Source: Marinomonas communis
GTDB lineage: Bacteria; Pseudomonadota; Gammaproteobacteria; Pseudomonadales; Marinomonadaceae
Direction of reading: 5' to 3'
DNA: 64,000 bases
Assembly: GCF_004363305.1 (NCBI RefSeq)
Contig: NZ_SNZA01000004.1
Span: forward strand, 248,001 to 312,000
The translations under genes were made by a program, and so were the position numbers. Below, in pieces: positions 58-20,135 of this stretch (the stretch's first letter is position 1; each line of letters opens with the position of its first letter). The notes under the pieces were generated by a model, which saw nothing but the letters and a program-made list of their open reading frames with translations, searched no databases and was not told where the DNA came from.

Positions 58-93
58 AAAAAAGCCCGATCCTATGTCTACATAAGATCGGGC
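58..93 (-). terminator. Rho-independent terminator of the accessory inositol operon
   Basis: Read on the minus strand, an 8-bp GC-rich stem (GCCCGATC/GATCGGGC, arms 64-71 and 86-93) with a further 4-bp inner stem is followed directly by six T residues (58-63). It lies 87 bp beyond the stop of the binding-protein gene ending at 180 and points the same way. Bases 1-57 show nothing recognisable. Confidence 0.85.
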
Positions 94-179: not shown

Positions 180-1115
180 TTAGTTGCGGGCAGCGTATTG
201 CGCTAAGTTAGCAGGCGTTACTAATTCAAACGGCACCCACACTTTCTGCTCCACCTTCTCACCATTCATCAGCTTTTGCAGTGTTTCTACCGCCCCGCGA
301 CCTTGTGCAGCGGCATTCTGGAAGACAGTGACATCCAGTTCGCCTGCTTGCATAGCCGCCAGTGCATCCGCGGTAGCATCAATACCTGCTACGACAACTT
401 TATCCATATCCATACCAAAAGCCTTCATGGCTTGAATCGCACCGATAGCCATTTCATCGTTATTAGCAATCACCGCATCAAACTCAATGCCAGCGGTTAG
501 CCAGTTGGTCATCAGATCGTTGCCTTTCGTTCGCATAAAGTCAGCAGATTGCTCCACGACAATCTCCAAACCTGAACAAGCGGGTGTTTCCAACACATCA
601 TGGATGTCTTTAGTTCGTTGCTGAGCTGCGTTATCCCCTAATGTGCCCATCATCACGGCGACCTTGCCTTTACCATCTAGCAAACGACATACTTCTTCTG
701 TTTGAAGGGTGCCAGACTCAAGTTCATTTGAGGCGACAAAGGCTTGGTTTTCAGGCAAGAAGTCAACATTAATAGGACGGCGACCAACATATACTAACGG
801 GATGCCAGCTTCTTCAGCATAGTCTGTCATCGCCTGAGTCGCATCCGAATCCACAGTATCAACGATAATGCCGTCTACCCCTGAAGCGATAAAGTTTTGA
901 ATTTGGTTCAACTGCATACCAATTTCATTCTTAGCATCCTCCATTTGCACCTCAAAGCCCGATTCATTGGCCGATTTTTCCAAACTGTTGCGCAGCACAG
1001 AGAGAAACAAATCATCAAAACTGAACAGGGTCACGCCAACCCGAGGCGCATCAGCCGCCATCACGGAGCCAGAGATCAGAGAAGCAAAGACAGCACTTAA
1101 AAGTGTTTTTTTCAT
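180..1115 (-). CDS. Periplasmic sugar/inositol-binding protein (orphan SBP of RbsB type)
   Basis: This 311-residue protein begins with a Sec signal peptide (about residues 1-20, cut after an M-A motif) and continues as a type I periplasmic binding fold of the ribose/inositol class. It closely resembles the 308-residue binding protein ending at 10999: both carry an IQNFIASGVD segment, an NNDEMAIGAIQA segment and a near-identical KVWVPFELVTP C-terminus. It is the last gene of a minus-strand operon with a TIM-barrel isomerase and a dehydrogenase. No permease or ATPase gene is adjacent, so it probably delivers a related polyol to the importer encoded at 8328-10950. The ligand is inferred from context; myo-inositol or another stereoisomer is possible. 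Confidence 0.88.
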   Translation of the reverse strand: MKKTLLSAVFASLISGSVMAADAPRVGVTLFSFDDLFLSVLRNSLEKSANESGFEVQMEDAKNEIGMQLNQIQNFIASGVDGIIVDTVDSDATQAMTDYAEEAGIPLVYVGRRPINVDFLPENQAFVASNELESGTLQTEEVCRLLDGKGKVAVMMGTLGDNAAQQRTKDIHDVLETPACSGLEIVVEQSADFMRTKGNDLMTNWLTAGIEFDAVIANNDEMAIGAIQAMKAFGMDMDKVVVAGIDATADALAAMQAGELDVTVFQNAAAQGRGAVETLQKLMNGEKVEQKVWVPFELVTPANLAQYAARN

Positions 1116-1189
1116 TTTTATTTTCCTTTATAGCATTGTTTTCAAAATTATCAGCTGTTGCTGAATCAGGGGTAAAACACAATATTCTG

Positions 1190-1205
1190 AGCCGCCTTAG
1201 CGGCT
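1190..1205 (-). other. Intercistronic hairpin at a stop codon
   Basis: The inverted repeat AGCCGC/GCGGCT (1190-1195 and 1200-1205, 4-nt loop) covers the stop codon of the TIM-barrel gene. No T tract follows, so it is more likely an mRNA-processing or stability element ahead of the highly expressed binding-protein gene than a terminator. Confidence 0.4.
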
Positions 1206-2138
1206 TAATGTCGCTTTCAAAGCATCGATGGATGTCTCAATCCCAGCGTCAACGGACATGGTCAAATCTTCCATTTCAAGAGACACCCAATCGTTGTATC
1301 CCATCATGCGCACTACTGAGAAAAACTCTTTCCACCATTGCATATCTTGACCACAACCGACGGCGACGTAGTTCCAAGCACGGTTAGCAGTATCTTCCAC
1401 CACTTTGGTTTCCAATAAGCCATTCACATCCGCTAGACCTCGCTCAATACGTGCATCTTTACCATGCACATGATGAATGGCATCACCGAGAGCACGGGCG
1501 GCCGCAATCGGATCCGCGCCCATAAAAATCAAATGACTTGGGTCGAGGTTCAGACCAATGATCGGACCTACTGCATTACGTAAGCGAAACAAGGTTTCAG
1601 GATTCCAGACCAACATGGAGGAAAAGTTTTCTAGGGCGATTTTTTCTACCCCATGTTGTTGCGCGTGTGCTGCCAGCTCTTTCCAAAATGGAATCGCCAC
1701 ATCGTTCCATTGATAATCTAAGCGCTGTTGTAAAATCGGTGGCCAGCTAACTGTGTAGGTAATCCAATTAGGCACTGTATCTTCAGGGCTGGCGGGTGGT
1801 AGGCCACTCATCATGACGATTTTTTTCACCCCCAAAAGCCCCGCTAGTACCATGGTGTCAAACGCGGCTTTTTTGTGAGCCTGTCCCATTGGACTTGGAT
1901 CTAACGGATTACCCGAGACATTGAGCGCAGCAATGTTCAGTCCGCGTGAATGAATAGCACTTAAAAAGGCTTCGCGCTTTGCTTCACTGGCAATTAATTC
2001 ATCCATACGCACATGCGGTGCAGGAGACCAGCCGCCGGTGGTCATTTCCACCCCTTCGACTCCCAGTTCAACCAGACGATCCAGCATGGCTTCGAATGGT
2101 AGATTCCCCAAACTATCAGTACAAAAAGAAAGCTTCAT
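1197..2138 (-). CDS. Sugar phosphate isomerase/epimerase, TIM-barrel family
   Basis: The 313-residue product belongs to the xylose-isomerase-like TIM-barrel superfamily (AP endonuclease 2 fold) that includes IolE, IolH and IolI. Probable metal-ligand positions are visible as a Glu in ALENF, an Asp and His in NLDPSH, a His in HHVHGKD and a Glu in VSLEMED. It lies 16 bp downstream of a Gfo/Idh/MocA dehydrogenase gene and 81 bp upstream of the binding-protein gene, all on one strand. Such pairs commonly oxidise and then isomerise or dehydrate a cyclic polyol or sugar. The substrate cannot be read from the sequence. I infer a keto-inositol or a related sugar acid because of the locus. Confidence 0.8.
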   Translation of the reverse strand: MKLSFCTDSLGNLPFEAMLDRLVELGVEGVEMTTGGWSPAPHVRMDELIASEAKREAFLSAIHSRGLNIAALNVSGNPLDPSPMGQAHKKAAFDTMVLAGLLGVKKIVMMSGLPPASPEDTVPNWITYTVSWPPILQQRLDYQWNDVAIPFWKELAAHAQQHGVEKIALENFSSMLVWNPETLFRLRNAVGPIIGLNLDPSHLIFMGADPIAAARALGDAIHHVHGKDARIERGLADVNGLLETKVVEDTANRAWNYVAVGCGQDMQWWKEFFSVVRMMGYNDWVSLEMEDLTMSVDAGIETSIDALKATLSR

Positions 2139-2154
2139 AAAACACCCCTCTCAA

Positions 2155-3162
2155 TTAACGGTAAAATACTGGACGCTCTGGAATATTGATTGGCTCGATG
2201 TTGCCAGAATGCTTCGCCGCTACACAGGCATCGGCCGTGACGGCTACAATAAAGCCATCCCAAGCACTCGGACCATCCACACGCCCAACACTGGTGGCAT
2301 CAATCCATTCTTGTAACTCCACATCAAATGCTTCAATAAAGCGCAGCTGCCAATCCACAATGATGTTCCGTGTGAACTTGCCATCGTGGCGCAACATGAC
2401 ATCACTTGGCTCAGGTAACGCAGCAGTACCAGATTCACACACCACATGGCATTGAATGTCATAGCCATATTGGGCATTTACGAAGCTTTCGATATTGATC
2501 AAGACGCCCTGCTTGGTTCGAAGCAAGACAACATGAGGATCTTGTAGACTGTCATCACACAGACGAGTTTTTCGAGGAAGGATCACTTGCGCTGACACAT
2601 AGTCATCGTTCAATAACCACTTCAGCACATCAAATTCATGCACTAGGGAATCGCTGATCGCCATGTCCCCAGCAAACCCTGGTGCGGCTGGCGCTCGGTG
2701 GGCACAATTCAAAATGAGTGGGTAACCTAGTTGTTCACTGTCTAGAACACTTTTTAGTTGGCGATAGCTTTTATCAAAGCGGCGCATAAACCCCACTTGA
2801 ACCAGCTGCTTTCCATGCATCATCTCTGCTTCAACAATCGCTCTACAGCCTGAAGCCGTGACCGCTAACGGCTTTTCGCAGAACACATATTTACCGGCTG
2901 CAATGGATGCCAACACAAACTCTTCGTGGGTCGGTCCCCAAGAAGTAACTAGGATCGCATCCACATCTTGCGCACGAATCAGCTCAATACCACTTTCATA
3001 AAATTTTGCCGAAAGATTGTGTTGCGCGAGAAAGGCTTCGGTATGTTCACGATTGACATCGTTGACCGCGACGACTTTAGCGCGGCTAAGCTTCTTTTCA
3101 ATTCGCAGAGTGTGCTCTTTACCGATGGCACCAATACCAATGACGCCGAGACGAAGTCCCAT
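2155..3162 (-). CDS. Gfo/Idh/MocA-family dehydrogenase, inositol 2-dehydrogenase paralogue
   Basis: This 335-residue NAD(P)-dependent oxidoreductase has the N-terminal Rossmann motif GVIGIGAIG, the catalytic-lysine motif CEKPLAVT and a conserved HEFD segment typical of the family. It aligns over its full length with the 336-residue IolG at 14092-15102; for example, [15 protein letters not shown] and SADACV/TADACV-type segments are shared. It heads the minus-strand accessory operon. Family members oxidise myo-, scyllo- or D-chiro-inositol to inososes. Because a second IolG copy sits in the main operon, this one may handle a different stereoisomer. The specificity is inference. Confidence 0.85.
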   Translation of the reverse strand: MGLRLGVIGIGAIGKEHTLRIEKKLSRAKVVAVNDVNREHTEAFLAQHNLSAKFYESGIELIRAQDVDAILVTSWGPTHEEFVLASIAAGKYVFCEKPLAVTASGCRAIVEAEMMHGKQLVQVGFMRRFDKSYRQLKSVLDSEQLGYPLILNCAHRAPAAPGFAGDMAISDSLVHEFDVLKWLLNDDYVSAQVILPRKTRLCDDSLQDPHVVLLRTKQGVLINIESFVNAQYGYDIQCHVVCESGTAALPEPSDVMLRHDGKFTRNIIVDWQLRFIEAFDVELQEWIDATSVGRVDGPSAWDGFIVAVTADACVAAKHSGNIEPINIPERPVFYR

Positions 3163-3470
3163 AGTTTCACCTACCTATGATGTATTTGATTTATTATCTA
3201 TCATAAATTGATATTAATTAGGCGCTTCAAAATAGCAGGAGGAGGGACACCGAACGATGCGATAAAACAGAATGCAAGGATTCAGACTGACGCATTTTTC
3301 CGGATTAAAGCTACACATAGCGGTAACTTAATGCCTTTTACTCTTGTTATTTTTAGGCTCTGATGGAATATTTGTTCCAAAGCAGTGGAATGCAGTATCG
3401 AAGAAAGCAGCAATAACACAAAGAAAACAGCATGATCTAATATCAAAAACATCATAAGTCGAGCTGAGAA
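3163..3470. promoter_or_regulatory. Divergent promoter region, dehydrogenase operon / LacI gene
   Basis: This 308-bp gene-free space separates the minus-strand operon from a plus-strand LacI gene. It is AT-rich near 3180-3225 and contains one strong palindrome at 3365-3378 (listed separately). No convincing -35/-10 pair could be assigned to either direction. Confidence 0.6.
3365..3378. promoter_or_regulatory. Candidate IolR operator (GGAA-N6-TTCC)
   Basis: The 14-mer GGAATATTTGTTCC has perfect GGAA/TTCC half-sites six bases apart. The same architecture recurs at 4792, 6820, 12068, 12237, 15159 and 15302. A GGAA-N6-TTCC motif is the described target of RpiR-type IolR in Sinorhizobium; an IolR-like gene lies at 5861-6718. 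Confidence 0.6.
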
Positions 3471-4520
3471 ATGATAGAAACCATCAAAAATAATAACAGC
3501 AAGGTGACTCTTCAGGATATCGCAAACGAAGCCGGTGTCGGCGTAGCGACGGTGGATCGGGTCATTAATGGCCGCGCCAAAGTCAGTGAAAAGACCATGA
3601 AAAAAGTCCTCCAAGCCTCACAAGCTCTGGGATACCACGGCCATAACCTAATCAAACAACGGGTAGGACAAGATCTTGAGGAGCTGACGTTAGGATTTAT
3701 CTTGCAGCGCCGCGAGAGCTACTTTTATCGTGAGCTGGCGGCAGAAATCGAGCGAGGTTGCGAGGCCATCAAACATAAAAAAATCTCCGCTAAAATCGAG
3801 TTCTTAGATGACTTAACCCCCCGATCACTGGCTCAAACGATTGAAAAACTCGGTGCACAGGTTAATGCTCTGGGGATTGTGGCAGCGGATCATGCCAAAG
3901 TGAATATTGCCGTTGAGAGTTTACAAGCCACAGGCAAGCCTGTATTTACGTTATTGAGTGACATAACCGCCAGCAGTCGCGCCGGCTATGTTGGCATTGA
4001 TAATCGTGCGGCAGGACGCACGGCAGCCTGGGCCATTACGAAACTGGCAAAACAGCAAGGCAAGATTGGCATCATTATGGGAAGCCACCGCTACCTATGC
4101 CAGGAACTGTGTGAAATCAGCTTCCGCTCCTATTGCCGTGAAAACGCCCCACAGTTTCAAATCGTTGAATCCGTTGTCAGCTTAGAAAATAAAAGCCTAG
4201 CGGAAGATGCCACCCTTGAGCTATTAAAACAAAATCCTGATCTCGTCGGGCTGTACTGCGCTGGTGGAGGTGTGGAAGGTGTACTTGATGCGCTGGAAGG
4301 CATGCCTCTCGCAAAAGACATGATCGTGGTCGCCAACGAGTTAACCCACGCCACCAAAGTCGCCTTGATGGATGGCATTCTCAATATGGTGATCTCTCAC
4401 CCACGAGATCGACTCGTGAAAGCGTTAGTCGAACAAATGATTGCCGATACGCCCAACCTTTCCGGTCGCCCACAAGCGGTGCTGTTACCTTTTGATATCC
4501 ATATTTCTGAGAATATCTAG
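3471..4520 (+). CDS. LacI-family transcriptional regulator
   Basis: This 349-residue protein has an N-terminal LacI helix-turn-helix (about residues 12-31, VTLQDIANEAGVGVATVDRV) followed by a periplasmic-binding-like effector domain. Where many LacI proteins have TVSRV, it has TVDRV, as does the second LacI protein at 7190-8218. The two are similar throughout (for example YVGIDNRAAGRTAAWAI against HIGVDNRKAGRTAAWAI). It is divergent from the accessory inositol operon, which it probably controls in response to a sugar or polyol. The ATG at 3471 has only a weak ribosome-binding site. Ligand and operator are unknown. Confidence 0.88.
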   Translation: MIETIKNNNSKVTLQDIANEAGVGVATVDRVINGRAKVSEKTMKKVLQASQALGYHGHNLIKQRVGQDLEELTLGFILQRRESYFYRELAAEIERGCEAIKHKKISAKIEFLDDLTPRSLAQTIEKLGAQVNALGIVAADHAKVNIAVESLQATGKPVFTLLSDITASSRAGYVGIDNRAAGRTAAWAITKLAKQQGKIGIIMGSHRYLCQELCEISFRSYCRENAPQFQIVESVVSLENKSLAEDATLELLKQNPDLVGLYCAGGGVEGVLDALEGMPLAKDMIVVANELTHATKVALMDGILNMVISHPRDRLVKALVEQMIADTPNLSGRPQAVLLPFDIHISENI

Positions 4521-5860: not shown

Positions 5861-6718
5861 TTAACTCTTTAGGGGCAACTGCTCGCGTTTTTCTAGTTCG
5901 TGGGCCAGACCAATTGATAACGCTTGAGCTAATACTAACGATGAAGACAACGAGCGAAACGAGTCGATTTCAGCTTCTTTTACCACAAAGGATACCGTCG
6001 CTATCGACGCAAGTGGGCTGATTTGGTTATCAGTAATCACGATCAAAGGAACGCCTTTTTCAGCGGCCGCCTTGGCCACCACCTGAGTTTCTTCAGCGTA
6101 GGGGTGGAAACTTACCGCAATCAGAACATCGTTTTCGTCTAATGTACTGGCTTGCTCCTTATACATTCCCCCAACGCCATCCACCAAATATGCCTTGCGA
6201 TCAATATGACGAAGTGCATAAGCGAAATAGCTCGCTACCACAAAAGCTCGACGCACCCCAACGATGTGAGCGGCATGGGCGTTGGCTAACACATCAATCG
6301 CACGCTCTAGCTCTTCAGTAGAAATAATCTCGGCTAAATGTTGCAGCGCCAACACATTGGCGTCAGAAAAGCGCTTTAACAGTCGGTAAGGAGATTGATC
6401 AGAATCATTCGTTCCTAAAGCATCCCGTGCCATACGGATGCGATCTTGATAGTTTGGCGACTCTTCCATCAGGTTCTGCTGAAACAGCTTTTGCATCTCG
6501 GTAAAGCCACTGAAGCCAAATGAGTTGGCAAAACGAACCCATGTAGATGGATGCACGCCAGCTTGTTCGGAAAGCACCGCGACCGTACCAAATGCCACAT
6601 CACTTGGGGAATCAATCACAAACTCAGCCACTTGGCGTAAACGCTTACTTAAATTAGGATGCTCACGTTTAATGGTTTCTTTGAGCTCTGATAAAGACTT
6701 TGGCGTAAGATCTGACAT
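5861..6718 (-). CDS. iolR: RpiR-family transcriptional regulator, probable IolR
   Basis: This 285-residue protein has an N-terminal RpiR helix-turn-helix domain (roughly residues 15-85, with VLSEQAGVHPSTWVRFANSF) and a C-terminal SIS sugar-phosphate-binding domain (roughly 130-260, with SFHPYAEETQVVAKAA). The HTH resembles alphaproteobacterial and gammaproteobacterial IolR proteins, which repress inositol genes until an inositol catabolite binds the SIS domain. The convergent position next to iolB supports this. The repeated RGAA-N6-TTCY palindromes in the locus are its most likely targets, including one about 100 bp upstream of its own start, which suggests autoregulation. HexR is an alternative RpiR identity, but the HTH sequence and context argue against it. 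Confidence 0.82.
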   Translation of the reverse strand: MSDLTPKSLSELKETIKREHPNLSKRLRQVAEFVIDSPSDVAFGTVAVLSEQAGVHPSTWVRFANSFGFSGFTEMQKLFQQNLMEESPNYQDRIRMARDALGTNDSDQSPYRLLKRFSDANVLALQHLAEIISTEELERAIDVLANAHAAHIVGVRRAFVVASYFAYALRHIDRKAYLVDGVGGMYKEQASTLDENDVLIAVSFHPYAEETQVVAKAAAEKGVPLIVITDNQISPLASIATVSFVVKEAEIDSFRSLSSSLVLAQALSIGLAHELEKREQLPLKS

Positions 6719-8327: not shown

Positions 8328-9374
8328 CTAAGTGGATTTCTTCAGTTTACCCTGACGATGTTGGTCAACGATTACTGCAACAACGATGATGGCACCCTTG
8401 ATGATATCTTGGTAGTAAGCATCGATTCGTAGGAAAGTGAAGCCTGACAGCATCACACCTAGAATCAAGGCACCAATCACGGTTCCCGCGATGCGACCAC
8501 GACCACCAGACAAAGACACACCACCGATAACGGCAGCCGCAATGGCATCTAGCTCGTACATCAAACCCATACCAGCTTGTGCTGTTTTGATACGGGCAAT
8601 GGCAACCATCGCAGCCAAACCTGTTAGCAAACCGGCAATGGTGTAGACCTTGATAAGGTGCATGTCGATGTTGATACCCGATACACGAGCGGCTTGTGGG
8701 TTAGCACCAATGGCGTAGGTGAATTTACCAAAGCGGGTGTAGCGCATCACGATGTGGAAAATAACCGCTACTGCAAGGAAGATTACAACAGGCATCCAGC
8801 GATCTAGAGCATTACCCAGTGCAGCGAAATCTTTTGTGAAACCCGATACAGGGCTACCATCTGTGTACCAGCGAGCGATACCACGAGCCGACACCATCAT
8901 CCCAAGTGTTGCAATAAATGGTGGTATTTTCGTCTTGGTAATCAACCACCCGTTGATAAAGCCTGCCAACGCACCAGCACCTAGACCAACGATTAACGGC
9001 ACAACAAATGGCAAGTCAGTCAGTGTTGGAAAGATCACCTTTGGCCAAGCACTGGTCTGGGCAAAGGTGGCAGCGATCATGGCGGTCATAGCAACAACGG
9101 AGCCAGAGGATAAGTCGATCCCCCCGGTAATGATGACCATGGTGACACCAATGGCAATAATACCGATTACGGAAACCTGCAATACGATGATTTGGATTCG
9201 GCTCATGTTCATTAGGAAGCTTTGTCCAACAAACATCCAGCCCAAAATTTCAAACATAACTGAGATACCCACCAATACGGCGAGGATACTCAATTCTGGT
9301 GGAAGTGGTTTTTTCTGCTTTTCTGCCCCAGTGTCTACCGCGGCAGGCTTAACTGTGTTGTCTAAAGTAGTCAT
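8328..9374 (-). CDS. ABC sugar/inositol importer, permease subunit (RbsC family)
   Basis: A 348-residue polytopic inner-membrane protein of the ribose/xylose/inositol permease family with about nine or ten hydrophobic segments. The family signature GGIDLSSGSVVAMTAMI is near residue 85, and GGVSLSGGRGRIAGTVIGAL lies near the C-terminus. It is the last gene of the binding protein-ATPase-permease operon. In this family two copies form the channel with one dual-domain ATPase. The iol genes on both sides suggest a myo-inositol importer equivalent to IatP. The ribosome-binding site (AGAG) is weak. Confidence 0.92.
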   Translation of the reverse strand: MTTLDNTVKPAAVDTGAEKQKKPLPPELSILAVLVGISVMFEILGWMFVGQSFLMNMSRIQIIVLQVSVIGIIAIGVTMVIITGGIDLSSGSVVAMTAMIAATFAQTSAWPKVIFPTLTDLPFVVPLIVGLGAGALAGFINGWLITKTKIPPFIATLGMMVSARGIARWYTDGSPVSGFTKDFAALGNALDRWMPVVIFLAVAVIFHIVMRYTRFGKFTYAIGANPQAARVSGINIDMHLIKVYTIAGLLTGLAAMVAIARIKTAQAGMGLMYELDAIAAAVIGGVSLSGGRGRIAGTVIGALILGVMLSGFTFLRIDAYYQDIIKGAIIVVAVIVDQHRQGKLKKST

Positions 9375-9402
9375 ATCAATCTCTTATTCTTGTCATTAAA
9401 AA

Positions 9403-10950
9403 CTATTTCGCAGCCAGACTCATGACGGACACTTGGTCCGCTTCATCACGATCAAGGATCCCAGTACAGCGACCTTCATGCATAACCAGCACTCGGTCAC
9501 TCATTCCCAATACCTCAGGTAGCTCAGATGAAATCATGATCACAGCCACACCTTTATGGGCTAATTGAGAGATCAAGGCGTGAATTTCAGATTTCGCCCC
9601 CACATCGATACCGCGGGTAGGTTCATCCAAAATCAGAATTCTTGGGTGGGTTAGCAACCAACGAGCAATCAATACTTTTTGCTGATTACCACCGGATAAG
9701 TTTTCGATCACCTCGTGCATACTTGGCGTTTTCACACGAAGCTTTTTACACAACTCAGCAGACTCTTTTTCCAAAGCCGCATGATCGACAAAACCGTTAT
9801 TCACATAGTTATCGTGTAACACGGCTGACTGAACGTTTTCTTGAATATCTAACGGCAAGAAACACCCTGTTTCCTTGCGGTCTTCCGTTAAGAATGCCAT
9901 GCCCTGTCTGATCGCATCGTGCGGGTTCTTGATATTAACTTCTTCACCTTCAATGAAGATCTGGCCAGACGTCGCAGGTGTCACACCAAAAATCGTTTCG
10001 GCAACATTTGAGCGCCCTGCGCCAACCAATCCTGCCAATCCAAGAATCTCGCCTTTGCGAACATCAAAGGAAATGTCATGAAAGACGCCTTCTAGGCTAA
10101 GGTTTTTAACGGACAATAAGACATCGCCAATCTCAACTTCTTCCTTCGGAAACATTTGTGAGACTTCTCGGCCCACCATCATTTTGATGATGTCATCACG
10201 GGTCACTTCAGAGGAAAGGTGCGTACCAATGTATTTGCCATCACGGAACACTGAAAACTCGTCCGCAATTTCAAACAACTCGTTCATTTTGTGGGTGATG
10301 TAAACGATACCAATGCCGCGTTTGCGTAGGTCACGAATAATCTCGAAAAGGTGCGCTACCTCGGTTTCAGTGATCGCTGATGTTGGCTCATCCATGATGA
10401 GTACGTCAGAGTTAAATGAAACCGCTTTCGCAATTTCAACCATCTGACGGTTCGCCACCGACAATGTTGAGATTTCAGCATCAGGGTTTAAGCGGATGTT
10501 AAGTCGATCAAACAGTTCGACCGTCATGCCACGCATTCGATCATGGTCAATCAGGCCAAAACTGTTGCGAGGTTCACGACGGATCCAGATGTTTTCCGAA
10601 ACCGTCATGGAGTTCATCAATAACAGCTCTTGGTGAATCATGGCGACACCAGATTCTTGAGCTTTAAGAGGAGTTTCCAAGGTGACCGGCTCACCACGAA
10701 GGCGCACCTCTCCTTGGTCGGGTTGATAAATACCAGCGATTACCTTCATCAAGGTTGATTTACCCGCACCGTTCTCACCCATTAGAGCGTGAACCGTACC
10801 AGGCCGAATCTTTAACTGGACATTATCGAGTGCTAATACCCCAGGAAACTCTTTGCGCACGTCTACGACTTCTAGGACGTACTCTGAGCTTTGTGCCTGG
10901 GGACTTACGCCACTCGTAGGCATGGCTTCCACCACTGCTGCGCTACTCAT
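9403..10950 (-). CDS. ABC sugar/inositol importer, ATP-binding subunit (RbsA family)
   Basis: A 515-residue dual-domain ATPase. The N-terminal domain has Walker [10 protein letters not shown] and Walker [10 protein letters not shown], with a degenerate signature (LSVANRQ). The C-terminal domain has a degenerate Walker A (GLVGAGRS) with intact LSGGNQQK and [11 protein letters not shown]. This asymmetry is normal for the RbsA/MglA/XylG class. Start at 10950 has a strong AGGAGG. It is the middle gene of the importer operon and the likely energiser for both binding proteins in the window (IatA-like). Confidence 0.93.
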
Positions 10951-10991: not shown

Positions 10992-11018
10992 TAAACAATT
11001 ACTTTAAGTAATTGTTTA
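10992..11018 (-). other. 27-bp perfect palindrome covering the binding-protein stop codon
   Basis: Arms TAAACAATTACTT (10992-11004) and AAGTAATTGTTTA (11006-11018) are perfect complements around one base. The structure spans the last codons and stop of the binding-protein gene and precedes the ATPase gene by about 40 bp. No T tract follows. Such hairpins commonly stabilise the upstream binding-protein mRNA and reduce downstream expression. That role here is inference. Confidence 0.6.
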
Positions 11019-11925
11019 GATTTTCAGGTGTTACAAGCTCAAACGGAACCCATACTTTCTGGTCCACATCTTCGCCTTTAGCAAGTTTCACTGCCGCATC
11101 AACCGATCCTCGACCCTGACCTTCAGCGCTTTGGAAAACCGTCACATCTAAGTCACCTGCTTTCATCGCTGCTAGAGCATCAGTTGTCGCATCGATACCT
11201 GCAACAATTACATCGTCCATTGAACGACCATCTGCTTTAAGTGCTTGAATCGCACCTATGGCCATTTCATCATTATTTGAGATCACTGCATCAAATTGGA
11301 TGCCTGCAGAAATCCAGTTCGTCATCAAGTCGCTACCCAGAGTGCGCGACCACATACCTGTTTGCTGCTCTACCACCTTAAGGCCAGAACATTCAGGTGT
11401 TGCAATCACATCATGGATATCTTGCGTGCGTTGCAAGGCCGCCTGGTTAGTTAACTCACCCATCATGACAACAACGTTACCTTTACCGCCCATCAAGCGA
11501 CAAACCTCTTGTGTTTGCAAGGTACCGGAGACTCGCTCATCGGATGCGACGAACGCTTGGTTATCAGGAAGTAAATCAACGTTGATTGGTTGGCGGTTAA
11601 CGTAGATAAGTGGAATGCCAGCCGCTTGTGCGTCATCAGAGATGGAAATGGTGGCATCCGTATCCACAGGGTTAACGATGATGGCATCAACGCCAGAAGC
11701 GATGAAGTTTTGAATTTGGTTTAGCTGTGTACCGACTTCGTTCTTGGCATCTTCGATTTGAACATCAACGCCCTGCTCTTCTGCAGCGGATTGAATACCG
11801 TTACGAAGGGTCGTCAAAAAGTTGTCATCAAAAAGTGCCATAGACACACCGATGGTTAAGTCCGCTGCGTGAACAGAAGACATCATCATGCCAGATGCTA
11901 AAGCCGTAAGAGCTAGTTTTTTCAT
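10999..11925 (-). CDS. ABC sugar/inositol importer, periplasmic binding protein
   Basis: A 308-residue type I binding protein with a signal peptide (about residues 1-20, ending V-H-A). I place the start at 11925, behind AGGAA, rather than at 11952. It is the first gene of the importer operon and is paralogous to the orphan binding protein at 180-1115. Flanking iol genes make myo-inositol the most likely ligand (IbpA-like). The family also binds ribose, allose and other inositols. Confidence 0.92.
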   Translation of the reverse strand: MKKLALTALASGMMMSSVHAADLTIGVSMALFDDNFLTTLRNGIQSAAEEQGVDVQIEDAKNEVGTQLNQIQNFIASGVDAIIVNPVDTDATISISDDAQAAGIPLIYVNRQPINVDLLPDNQAFVASDERVSGTLQTQEVCRLMGGKGNVVVMMGELTNQAALQRTQDIHDVIATPECSGLKVVEQQTGMWSRTLGSDLMTNWISAGIQFDAVISNNDEMAIGAIQALKADGRSMDDVIVAGIDATTDALAAMKAGDLDVTVFQSAEGQGRGSVDAAVKLAKGEDVDQKVWVPFELVTPENLNNYLK

Positions 11926-12067
11926 TGTGCGATTTCCTCGAAAAATGAACACTGAGTGTTCTATTTGTTTTTATTGTTTCCGGTAAAACGCGTCTAAGCA
12001 TGTTGCTTAAACAGACGAAATGTTTGTTTACATTTCGAATACGATCGTTCTAAAAAAATTACCATTT

Positions 12068-15131: not shown

Positions 15132-15158
15132 AAGGCTGCTTTCGAGCAGCCTTTTTTT
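15132..15158 (+). terminator. Rho-independent terminator after iolG
   Basis: AAGGCTGCT (15132-15140), a TTCG tetraloop and AGCAGCCTT (15145-15153) are followed by a T run to 15158. It is a strong terminator, ending exactly where the next operator begins. Confidence 0.93.
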
Positions 15159-15172
15159 GGAATAAATATTCC
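15159..15172. promoter_or_regulatory. Candidate IolR operator (perfect GGAA-N6-TTCC)
   Basis: GGAATAAATATTCC is a perfect 14-bp palindrome except for the two central bases, abutting the T tract of the iolG terminator. It is about 130 bp upstream of the second site at 15302, a spacing that would allow looping between two bound repressors. The DNA in between is very AT-rich. Confidence 0.65.
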
Positions 15173-15291
15173 GTTCCATTTCATAAAGAAATACTGTCGG
15201 CACAAACAAAAACAATTAAGACATTGATTTAATTGAAAAAAATAAACAAATAAGTCTATAAACAAAACCTGAAAAAATATTTTCCAAACAA

Positions 15292-19235: not shown

Positions 19236-20135
19236 ATGAGCGTTCGTATCGGTATTAACCCACTTACATGGACCAATGACGACCTACCTACTTTAGGGGC
19301 AGACACGTCACTCGAAACCTGCCTAACAGAAGGCAAACAAGCAGGATTTAGTGGTTTTGAATTGGGTCAAAAATTCCCACGTGATCCAGAAGTGCTTGGT
19401 CCAATCCTGAAAAGCCATGGTCTAGATCTAGTCTCTGGCTGGTTCAGTGGTGAGCTACTTTCGCGCAGTGTCGAAGAGGAAATTGAGGCCATCAAACCTC
19501 ATTTACACCTACTAAAAACACTTGGCGCAAAAGCCATGGTGTACTGTGAAATCACAGATTGCATCCATGGGCAGATCGATACTCCACTATCACATCGCCC
19601 ACGCTTAACCGAAGCGCAAATCGCAGACCTAGGTAAGAAGCTTACACTGGTAGCTGATTTTACTCTTTCTGAAGGAGTTCAAATCGCCTACCACCACCAT
19701 ATGGGTACAGTGATTCAAACCGAAGAAGAAGTTGCGCTGCTAATGAAATACACCGGCCCATCGGTAGGTCTGCTATTAGATACCGGCCATATGACCTTTG
19801 CCGGAGGTGATCCGTACGCAGTTCAAGAGCGCCATGCTGATCGTATCGTTCATGTGCATTGTAAAGACATGCGCAAAGAGATTTTAGCGGATGCGCTAAA
19901 CCGCGACCTTCCATTCTTACGTGCCATGCTGAACGGCGCGTTCACGGTACCAAGTGATGGTTTTATCGATTACGGCCGTTTGTTTAAACAGTTGAAAGCA
20001 AGCAATTACTCTGGCTGGTTAGTGGTGGAAGCGGAACAAGACCCTGCGGTTGCACACCCTCTGACTTACGCCACCAAAGGCGCCGAAGGCTTAAAACGAT
20101 ACTGTGAAGAAGCTGGCTTAGATCTAATCGACTAA
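19236..20135 (+). CDS. iolE: 2-keto-myo-inositol dehydratase
   Basis: IolE dehydrates scyllo-inosose to 3D-(3,5/4)-trihydroxycyclohexane-1,2-dione, the substrate of IolD next door. The 299-residue TIM-barrel protein starts with the characteristic IGINPLTWTNDDLP. It carries the family's YHHHMGT, LDTGHMTFAG, HVHCKD and VVEAEQD segments, which hold the metal-binding Glu, Asp, His and Glu. Length matches the family. A GGAG ribosome-binding site precedes the ATG. Confidence 0.95.
   Translation: MSVRIGINPLTWTNDDLPTLGADTSLETCLTEGKQAGFSGFELGQKFPRDPEVLGPILKSHGLDLVSGWFSGELLSRSVEEEIEAIKPHLHLLKTLGAKAMVYCEITDCIHGQIDTPLSHRPRLTEAQIADLGKKLTLVADFTLSEGVQIAYHHHMGTVIQTEEEVALLMKYTGPSVGLLLDTGHMTFAGGDPYAVQERHADRIVHVHCKDMRKEILADALNRDLPFLRAMLNGAFTVPSDGFIDYGRLFKQLKASNYSGWLVVEAEQDPAVAHPLTYATKGAEGLKRYCEEAGLDLID

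Follow-up and report, generated by a model that had tools for sequence, protein, structure and literature searches.

A transporterless inositol-type gene module with an orphan substrate-binding protein in Marinomonas communis

Organization of the accessory module

A 64,000-nucleotide stretch of the 3.85-Mb genome of Marinomonas communis (contig NZ_SNZA01000004.1, positions 248,001 to 312,000; C4:248001-312000 in our numbering), hereafter the window, carries near its first base a small inositol-type gene module (window positions 180 to 4520) whose substrate-binding protein (SBP) gene has no adjoining ATPase-permease core. On the minus strand, the order of transcription is dehydrogenase (3162 to 2155), TIM-barrel enzyme (2138 to 1197) and SBP (1115 to 180), and a LacI-family regulator gene (3471 to 4520) is divergent. 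All four genes lie where an earlier note, made from the sequence alone, had placed them, and their Pfam and NCBIfam scores agree with the families that it had named.

180 to 1115, minus strand: orphan CUT2-type SBP, class A, 311 amino acids (Pfam Peripla_BP_4)
1197 to 2138, minus strand: TIM-barrel enzyme, 313 amino acids, candidate keto-cyclitol dehydratase/hydratase or isomerase (Pfam AP_endonuc_2, 107 bits)
2155 to 3162, minus strand: IolG-type inositol dehydrogenase paralogue, 335 amino acids (Pfam GFO_IDH_MocA; NCBIfam NF052679; PDB match 3mz0)
3471 to 4520, plus strand: divergent LacI-family regulator of the module, 349 amino acids (Pfam LacI and Peripla_BP_4)

The accessory SBP scores 180.5 bits on Peripla_BP_4 (cut-off, 35.1; residues 26 to 287), which places it among the CUT2-type (RbsB-like) binding proteins. 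Its closest solved relative is 4yo7 (43% identity over 286 residues; Z 35.3), a structure that we take to have been solved with myo-inositol. The module dehydrogenase scores 507 bits on the NCBIfam model of the bifunctional inositol 2-/D-chiro-inositol IolG (NF052679), slightly under the cut-off of 540, with the main-locus IolG at 558, and its top PDB match is 3mz0 (409 bits). The module LacI protein is 39% identical to that of the main locus, and a divergent LacI gene is equally placed in four further genomes.

The main inositol locus of the window contains an SBP-ATPase-permease operon (11952 to 8328), an IolG gene, a second LacI gene and an RpiR-type regulator gene. Genes fitting IolB, IolC, IolD, IolE and IolA are also present in the window.

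8328 to 9374, minus strand: permease, proposed shared importer core (Pfam BPD_transp_2)
9403 to 10950, minus strand: ATPase, proposed shared importer core (Pfam ABC_tran, two stretches)
10999 to 11952, minus strand: main inositol-type SBP of the core operon (Pfam Peripla_BP_4; closest solved relative by sequence, 4yo7)
5861 to 6718, minus strand: RpiR-family regulator, candidate IolR (Pfam HTH_6 and SIS)
19236 to 20135: IolE (410 bits on TIGR04379; cut-off, 290)

Paralogy and a second module in the genome

Between the two loci, the SBPs share 65% identity, and the accessory dehydrogenase and the main IolG share 54%. The TIM-barrel enzyme matches the main-locus TIM barrels over short stretches only, of which a 67-residue stretch of IolE (37% identity) is the best. 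The earlier view of the operon as a duplicate of main-locus parts thus holds for the SBP and the dehydrogenase but not for the TIM barrel.

Peripla_BP_4 occurs at 16 places in the genome, LacI-type regulators included. Three SBPs, 64% to 72% identical to one another, make up the subfamily in this genome, and these are the three matches of an SBP search at an E value of 1e-95, one beside the iol core and two orphan. The second orphan lies in a second module on contig C2, in which a LacI gene faces an SBP-TIM barrel-dehydrogenase set, likewise without an adjoining core. PF02653, a permease domain not confined to this class of permease, is found at 12 places, and the sole permease that matches the main permease at an E value of 1e-100 is that of the main-locus core. 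On contig C9 (L007:9960-14007), the domain-search positions put a permease gene between two SBP-domain genes.

Absence of an adjoining core

An ATPase and a permease beside the SBP, as in a complete ATP-binding cassette (ABC) importer operon, were found neither in the operon nor in the flanking frames. Beyond window base 1 lies a same-strand Rieske-type ferredoxin gene, followed by opposite-strand genes that do not resemble sugar transport genes. By eye, no permease or ATPase was seen among the frames of L001:4000-15700 beyond the window edge, and the genome-wide permease search gave zero matches within this flanking stretch; the core nearest to the module is that of the main locus (8328 to 10950). 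Because no permease or ATPase was seen in the flanking DNA, the missing core is no artifact of the window edge, and the operon, its flanks and the genome-wide search all bear out the earlier statement that the module has no transporter core.

64 to 93, minus strand (L001:15493-15464): intrinsic-terminator-like hairpin 3' of the SBP gene (13-pair stem and T run)

Terminator-like sites number 5 by scan versus 4.7 in shuffled sequence, and the hairpin at 93 to 64 is distinguished solely by its stem length. The Rieske-type ferredoxin gene (L001:15040-15384) stands directly before window base 1, behind this hairpin. The separation by the hairpin and the failure to find a ferredoxin gene in any of the other four class A modules make it unlikely to be the fourth gene of the operon. 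In Marinomonas rhizomae (L122), however, a ferredoxin relative (57% identity) adjoins a 396-residue dehydrogenase frame and a TIM-barrel copy that has decayed. A few kilobases outside the window, at L001:9415-12363, a VanA-type Rieske oxygenase and reductase with a divergent GntR-like regulator were recognized by eye.

The ferredoxin gene also bears on the idea that scyllo-inosamine or an O-methyl derivative is handled by a rhizopine-type (moc) system, in which dehydrogenase, TIM barrel, SBP and ferredoxin would correspond to MocA, MocC, MocB and MocE; the kinds of genes are alike, MocC and MocE being presumably of these natures, and a ferredoxin gene does adjoin the module. The same hairpin and the same missing ferredoxin genes in the class A modules of other genomes weigh against such a system, the accessory SBP reaches just 42 bits on the NCBIfam rhizopine SBP model (NF052284; cut-off, 420), and the regulator here is of the LacI type, whereas MocR belongs to another family. 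Although moc units are described without an ABC core, and MocB as working with inositol-transporter parts, in the portion of a report available to us (PMC10107442), the SBP score and the type of regulator oppose a rhizopine system, which we consider very unlikely.

Distribution of the module design

In named genomes, places encoding a relative of the TIM-barrel enzyme numbered 135, and the best 79 distinct loci were compared with flanks of up to 10 kb, some of which stop at contig ends. A dehydrogenase gene lies within 600 bases of the TIM-barrel gene in 71 of the 79 loci, iolC or iolD (at least 40% identity) is present in 22, and an ATPase-permease pair is present in 24. In 17 loci a family SBP is encoded near the TIM barrel and the locus is without a core; nine of these are enterobacterial, with SBPs just 38% to 41% identical to those of M. 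communis, and eight, from seven genomes, have SBPs at 65% to 78%. The arrangement of a divergent LacI gene and an IolG-TIM barrel-SBP operon without an adjoining core recurs in M. rhizomae, G021 (another genome of the genus), Parathalassolituus penaei and Marinobacterium profundum, the last of which carries its class A module back to back with a second module.

The TIM-barrel gene is also found on plasmids. That of a Klebsiella quasipneumoniae plasmid (L002:7836-12532) accompanies genes for an SBP, a 392-residue Gfo/Idh dehydrogenase and an MFS transporter (TIM-barrel identity, 77%), and two further copies are on Klebsiella pneumoniae plasmids.

Co-occurrence of the SBP with the main core

Co-occurrence was analyzed in the genomes of 143 relatives, including M. 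communis itself, with E values of 1e-95 for the SBP and 1e-100 for the permease. Each was found in 10 of the 143 genomes, nine of which were common to both; G010 has the SBP without the core, and G118 has the core without the SBP. In eight of the nine genomes with both, the SBP adjoining the core is itself among the matches, and the count of extra SBPs is therefore the better measure. Extra SBPs were found in 7 of the 48 same-genus genomes (G000 to G047), namely, G000, G010, G021, G025, G026, G038 and G039, and the core is present in six of these seven versus 3 of the 41 others (Fisher p = 4.5e-5, by a test that ignores relatedness). In G010, the exception, the dehydrogenase gene of the module is broken and the LacI frame is interrupted. 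In both G038 and G039, an iolCDEA operon ends with the extra SBP gene.

Two cores without an SBP of their own were also observed. M. rhizomae (G025) has an ATPase-permease pair with no adjoining SBP gene and four family SBPs elsewhere; the room before its ATPase-permease pair, approximately 735 bases, is too small for an SBP gene. Marinobacterium nitratireducens has two cores, one of which (L206:8020-10641) lacks an adjoining family SBP, with a distant SBP-like gene (27% identity) about 6 kb off.

The permease search was also run in 18 genomes behind the TIM-barrel loci. Seven of them encode a module SBP at least 65% identical to one of the M. communis SBPs, and six of the seven (M. rhizomae, Parathalassolituus, three Marinobacterium genomes and Halomonas ventosae) have a permease 69% to 88% identical to the main permease.

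These counts bear on a different role for the orphan SBP, that of a sensor or chemoreceptor partner, or of a partner of some CUT2-type core other than the iol core. RbsB-type SBPs serve chemotaxis as well as transport, 11 further permease-domain places exist in the genome, some for other substrate classes, and Halomonas sp. LBP4 carries a module without a close core. In the M. communis genome, however, the iol core alone has so close an SBP adjoining it, and both the co-occurrence and the SBP-less core of M. rhizomae favor the iol core as partner; we regard the sensor or other-core role as improbable.

Specificity residues of the SBP and the dehydrogenase

Pocket positions of the SBPs were mapped through residues that we take to line the RbsB pocket. 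Class A SBPs have F31, D86, G111 and F193 (accessory numbering), and the corresponding residues of the main SBPs are A or S, N, N and W. The differences are fixed in all 5 class A and all 11 main SBPs compared, the class A proteins spanning three genera. Class-exclusive differences occupy 4 of 14 pocket columns versus 18 of 257 others (p = 0.019); six class comparisons were run, two of which gave p values below 0.02, uncorrected. At dehydrogenase position 157 (N157 of Bacillus subtilis IolG), Ala is present in all six accessory-type genes, one of which (L062) lies in a locus where no SBP is visible, and Asn in all 13 main genes and B. subtilis. The residues K97, D172 and H176 (B. subtilis numbering), presumably catalytic, are kept in all 22 aligned dehydrogenases. 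These comparisons support a module specificity that would have changed relative to that of the main locus.

The same residues can be held against the idea that the module serves myo-inositol itself, as a redundant set adding capacity and no substrate. Its proteins belong to the same families as those of the main locus, the dehydrogenase lies near the bifunctional myo-inositol/D-chiro-inositol model, and the SBP is close to the main one, all of which would suit redundancy. But the TIM barrel duplicates none of those in the main locus, the pocket differences are fixed across three genera with one more in the dehydrogenase, and the module has its own LacI gene, equally placed in five genomes, including that of M. 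communis. Redundancy is accordingly judged unlikely.

Family and chemistry of the TIM-barrel enzyme

The TIM-barrel enzyme is 65% to 82% identical to 29 aligned relatives from Pseudomonadota and Bacillota, picked from the 79 loci. E169, D198, H224 and E287, which we take to be metal ligands, are invariant across the 30 sequences. The predicted structure (mean pLDDT, 82.8; weak at residues 127 to 130 and 230 to 259) is nearest to SCO6571 (2zds; Z 28.8, 2.7 Å, 280 residues) and, second, to the 2-hydroxy-3-keto-glucal hydratase AtHYD (8ro4; Z 28.1, 2.8 Å, 278 residues), with the following match at Z 24.4. The isomerase IolI (1i60) comes only 20th by Foldseek; it is not among the 50 matches listed in a second structural comparison, an absence that proves nothing. 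On the IolE model TIGR04379 (myo-inosose-2 dehydratase), the enzyme scores 32.7 bits, far from the cut-off of 290.

A common fold alone shows no function, and hydratase or dehydratase chemistry may be as likely as isomerization. The label of TIM-barrel isomerase in the earlier note is therefore kept for the fold (AP_endonuc_2) and left aside for the reaction, for which the proximity of the model to a keto-glucal hydratase may point to a dehydratase or hydratase. An IolE with at least 50% identity is encoded in just one of the 79 TIM-barrel loci, and this rarity is in keeping with an IolE-like role without proving it. The levoglucosan pathway (LgdA/LgdB) was considered and rejected: the module dehydrogenase reaches 37 bits on NF052479, with a cut-off of 650, and two partner dehydrogenases from other TIM-barrel loci reach 85 and 73 bits.

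IolR-type operator sites

IolR of Caulobacter works via GGAA-N6-TTCC, according to the available part of its description (PMC2597717), and sites of this type stand in the window at the following positions, none with an assigned strand.

3364 to 3379: IolR-type operator TGGAA-N6-TTCCA in the divergent module promoter, perfect and fitting GGAA-N6-TTCC (PMC2597717)
12067 to 12082: IolR-type site with one mismatch, main SBP promoter
15158 to 15173: IolR-type site with one mismatch, upstream of iolC

The choice of motif was partly after the fact, the module-promoter site having been spotted once palindromes had been compared. Perfect TGGAA-N6-TTCCA occurs at seven places in the genome, and each of the two modules has one of the seven in its promoter (window 3364 and C2:181740). 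The plain motif GGAA-N6-TTCC occurs three times in the window (shuffle mean, 0.79; three reached in 4 of 100 shuffles), and 10 of the 13 cores scanned in relatives are preceded by an exact copy, L200, L204 and L206 being those without it. With one mismatch allowed, the motif is barely commoner genome-wide (162 places) than its backward control (145). A site with at most one mismatch was found in 9 of the 22 promoter regions tested. A palindrome common to the class A promoters of other genomes could not be established when the promoters were compared.

Proposed role of the module

The most probable explanation, in our judgment, is that the module is a plug-in through which a further inositol-related cyclitol gains access to the main inositol importer and pathway. 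That its SBP is a second one feeding a shared importer is well supported, albeit indirectly, because of the SBP paralogy, the co-occurrence, the SBP-less core of M. rhizomae and the common operator. An inositol-related ligand is supported by the family of the dehydrogenase, the presence of iolC or iolD in 22 of the 79 loci and the IolR-type site. The earlier proposal that a second SBP and dehydrogenase widen uptake to other inositols thus retains its shared importer and its inositol-type ligand. Among named isomers, D-chiro-inositol is our tentative first choice, since its oxidation yields a product on which another enzyme must act (PMC9603128) before it can join the pathway; O-methyl inositols and other isomers are possible.

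In this plug-in scheme, the orphan SBP would bind the cyclitol in the periplasm and deliver it to the main-locus ATPase-permease pair, while the main SBP would keep serving the usual substrate of the core. Oxidation of the cyclitol by the IolG-type dehydrogenase would give a ketone (an inosose or derivative), which the presumed metal-dependent TIM barrel would dehydrate or isomerize to a product joining the iol pathway (IolD, IolC, IolB and IolA). The divergent LacI protein would exert substrate-specific control, and the RpiR/IolR-type repressor pathway-wide control via GGAA-N6-TTCC. What the sequences themselves show is the anatomy, the lack of a core in the operon, the paralogy of the SBPs, the co-occurrence, the operator-like site and the class-specific residues; how the SBP docks, which reactions take place, on what substrate, and which protein binds the site are the parts that we infer.

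Several observations weigh against the plug-in explanation. The module of Halomonas sp. LBP4 (G148) looks intact, yet the top permease match in that genome is just 38%, and G118 carries the core with no SBP at an E value of 1e-95. In 8 of the 11 genomes behind TIM-barrel loci other than the seven with a close SBP, the permease is 59% to 66% identical, and some of these TIM-barrel loci have no near SBP (e.g., G159); of the remaining three, one has a 42% permease and two, an Aestuariibacter and a gammaproteobacterial metagenome-assembled genome with no SBP in their TIM-barrel loci, have none. On these comparisons, a very close core, and only it, appears to track a very close SBP, and a middling permease match is uninformative. 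In G021, the ATPase gene of the core (L189:8117-10897) is interrupted by an insertion and the modules look intact; by eye, the insertion, with two transposase-like frames, resembles a transposable element. The pocket positions are carried over from RbsB through a small alignment, with uncorrected p values, and two Oceanobacillus dehydrogenase copies have one Ala and one Asn at position 157. The operator site (at most one mismatch) is missing in 13 of the 22 promoters, including those of the class A modules in all four other genomes, and the neighboring Rieske ferredoxin gene has no place in the explanation.

More speculatively, Marinomonas and related marine bacteria might route uptake through a single inositol ATPase-permease hub that accepts up to four swappable SBPs, mostly in modules with their own regulator, dehydrogenase and TIM barrel, one cyclitol each; the hub might lose its own SBP, and the TIM barrel might represent an uncharacterized family of keto-cyclitol dehydratases/hydratases bypassing IolE. 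If the scheme is true, bacteria broaden the diet of one importer with small modules of catcher, enzyme and switch, not with whole transporters, and counts of complete transporters understate the uptake range of a genome. Ligand prediction for inositol-type SBPs would then become testable at four pocket positions, and attention would be drawn to the family of the TIM-barrel enzyme.

Comparison with known systems

No description of transporterless modules in inositol uptake was found in the titles and abstract openings of the open-license literature. Orphan SBPs acting on foreign cores are known from BraC3 (PMC2978685) and the MocB-IntBC combination (PMC10107442), as far as the available parts of these reports go, and the idea is less new than first stated.

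BraC3 of Rhizobium leguminosarum is an orphan SBP that uses the Bra membrane complex (PMC2978685). The M. communis SBP may resemble it as a separately encoded protein using the core of another ABC system, a likeness drawn here from the genes; BraC3 differs in serving branched-chain amino acids, and the accessible text mentions no accompanying enzyme genes or regulator. MocB of rhizopine catabolism, according to the excerpted report, has been combined with the IntBC parts of an inositol transporter by engineering (PMC10107442). As proposed for the module SBP, it is an SBP for an inositol derivative that is encoded beside a dehydrogenase gene (mocBA) and can work with an inositol core; unlike here, the hybrid is engineered and the regulator is MocR instead of LacI, and the module SBP is far under the rhizopine cut-off.

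The myo-inositol importer IbpA-IatA-IatP of Caulobacter, with its regulator IolR, shares the SBP-ATPase-permease kind of core and the GGAA-N6-TTCC operator with M. communis; it has a single SBP, encoded in the core operon, and the portion of the source available mentions no transporterless module (PMC2597717). The D-chiro-inositol route of B. subtilis, in which IolG is followed by the isomerase IolI, is similar in combining an IolG-type dehydrogenase with a second enzyme acting on the ketone, in the part of the study at hand (PMC9603128). It differs in that second enzyme: IolI is only at rank 20 by Foldseek, whereas the TIM-barrel model of M. communis is nearest to SCO6571 and the hydratase.

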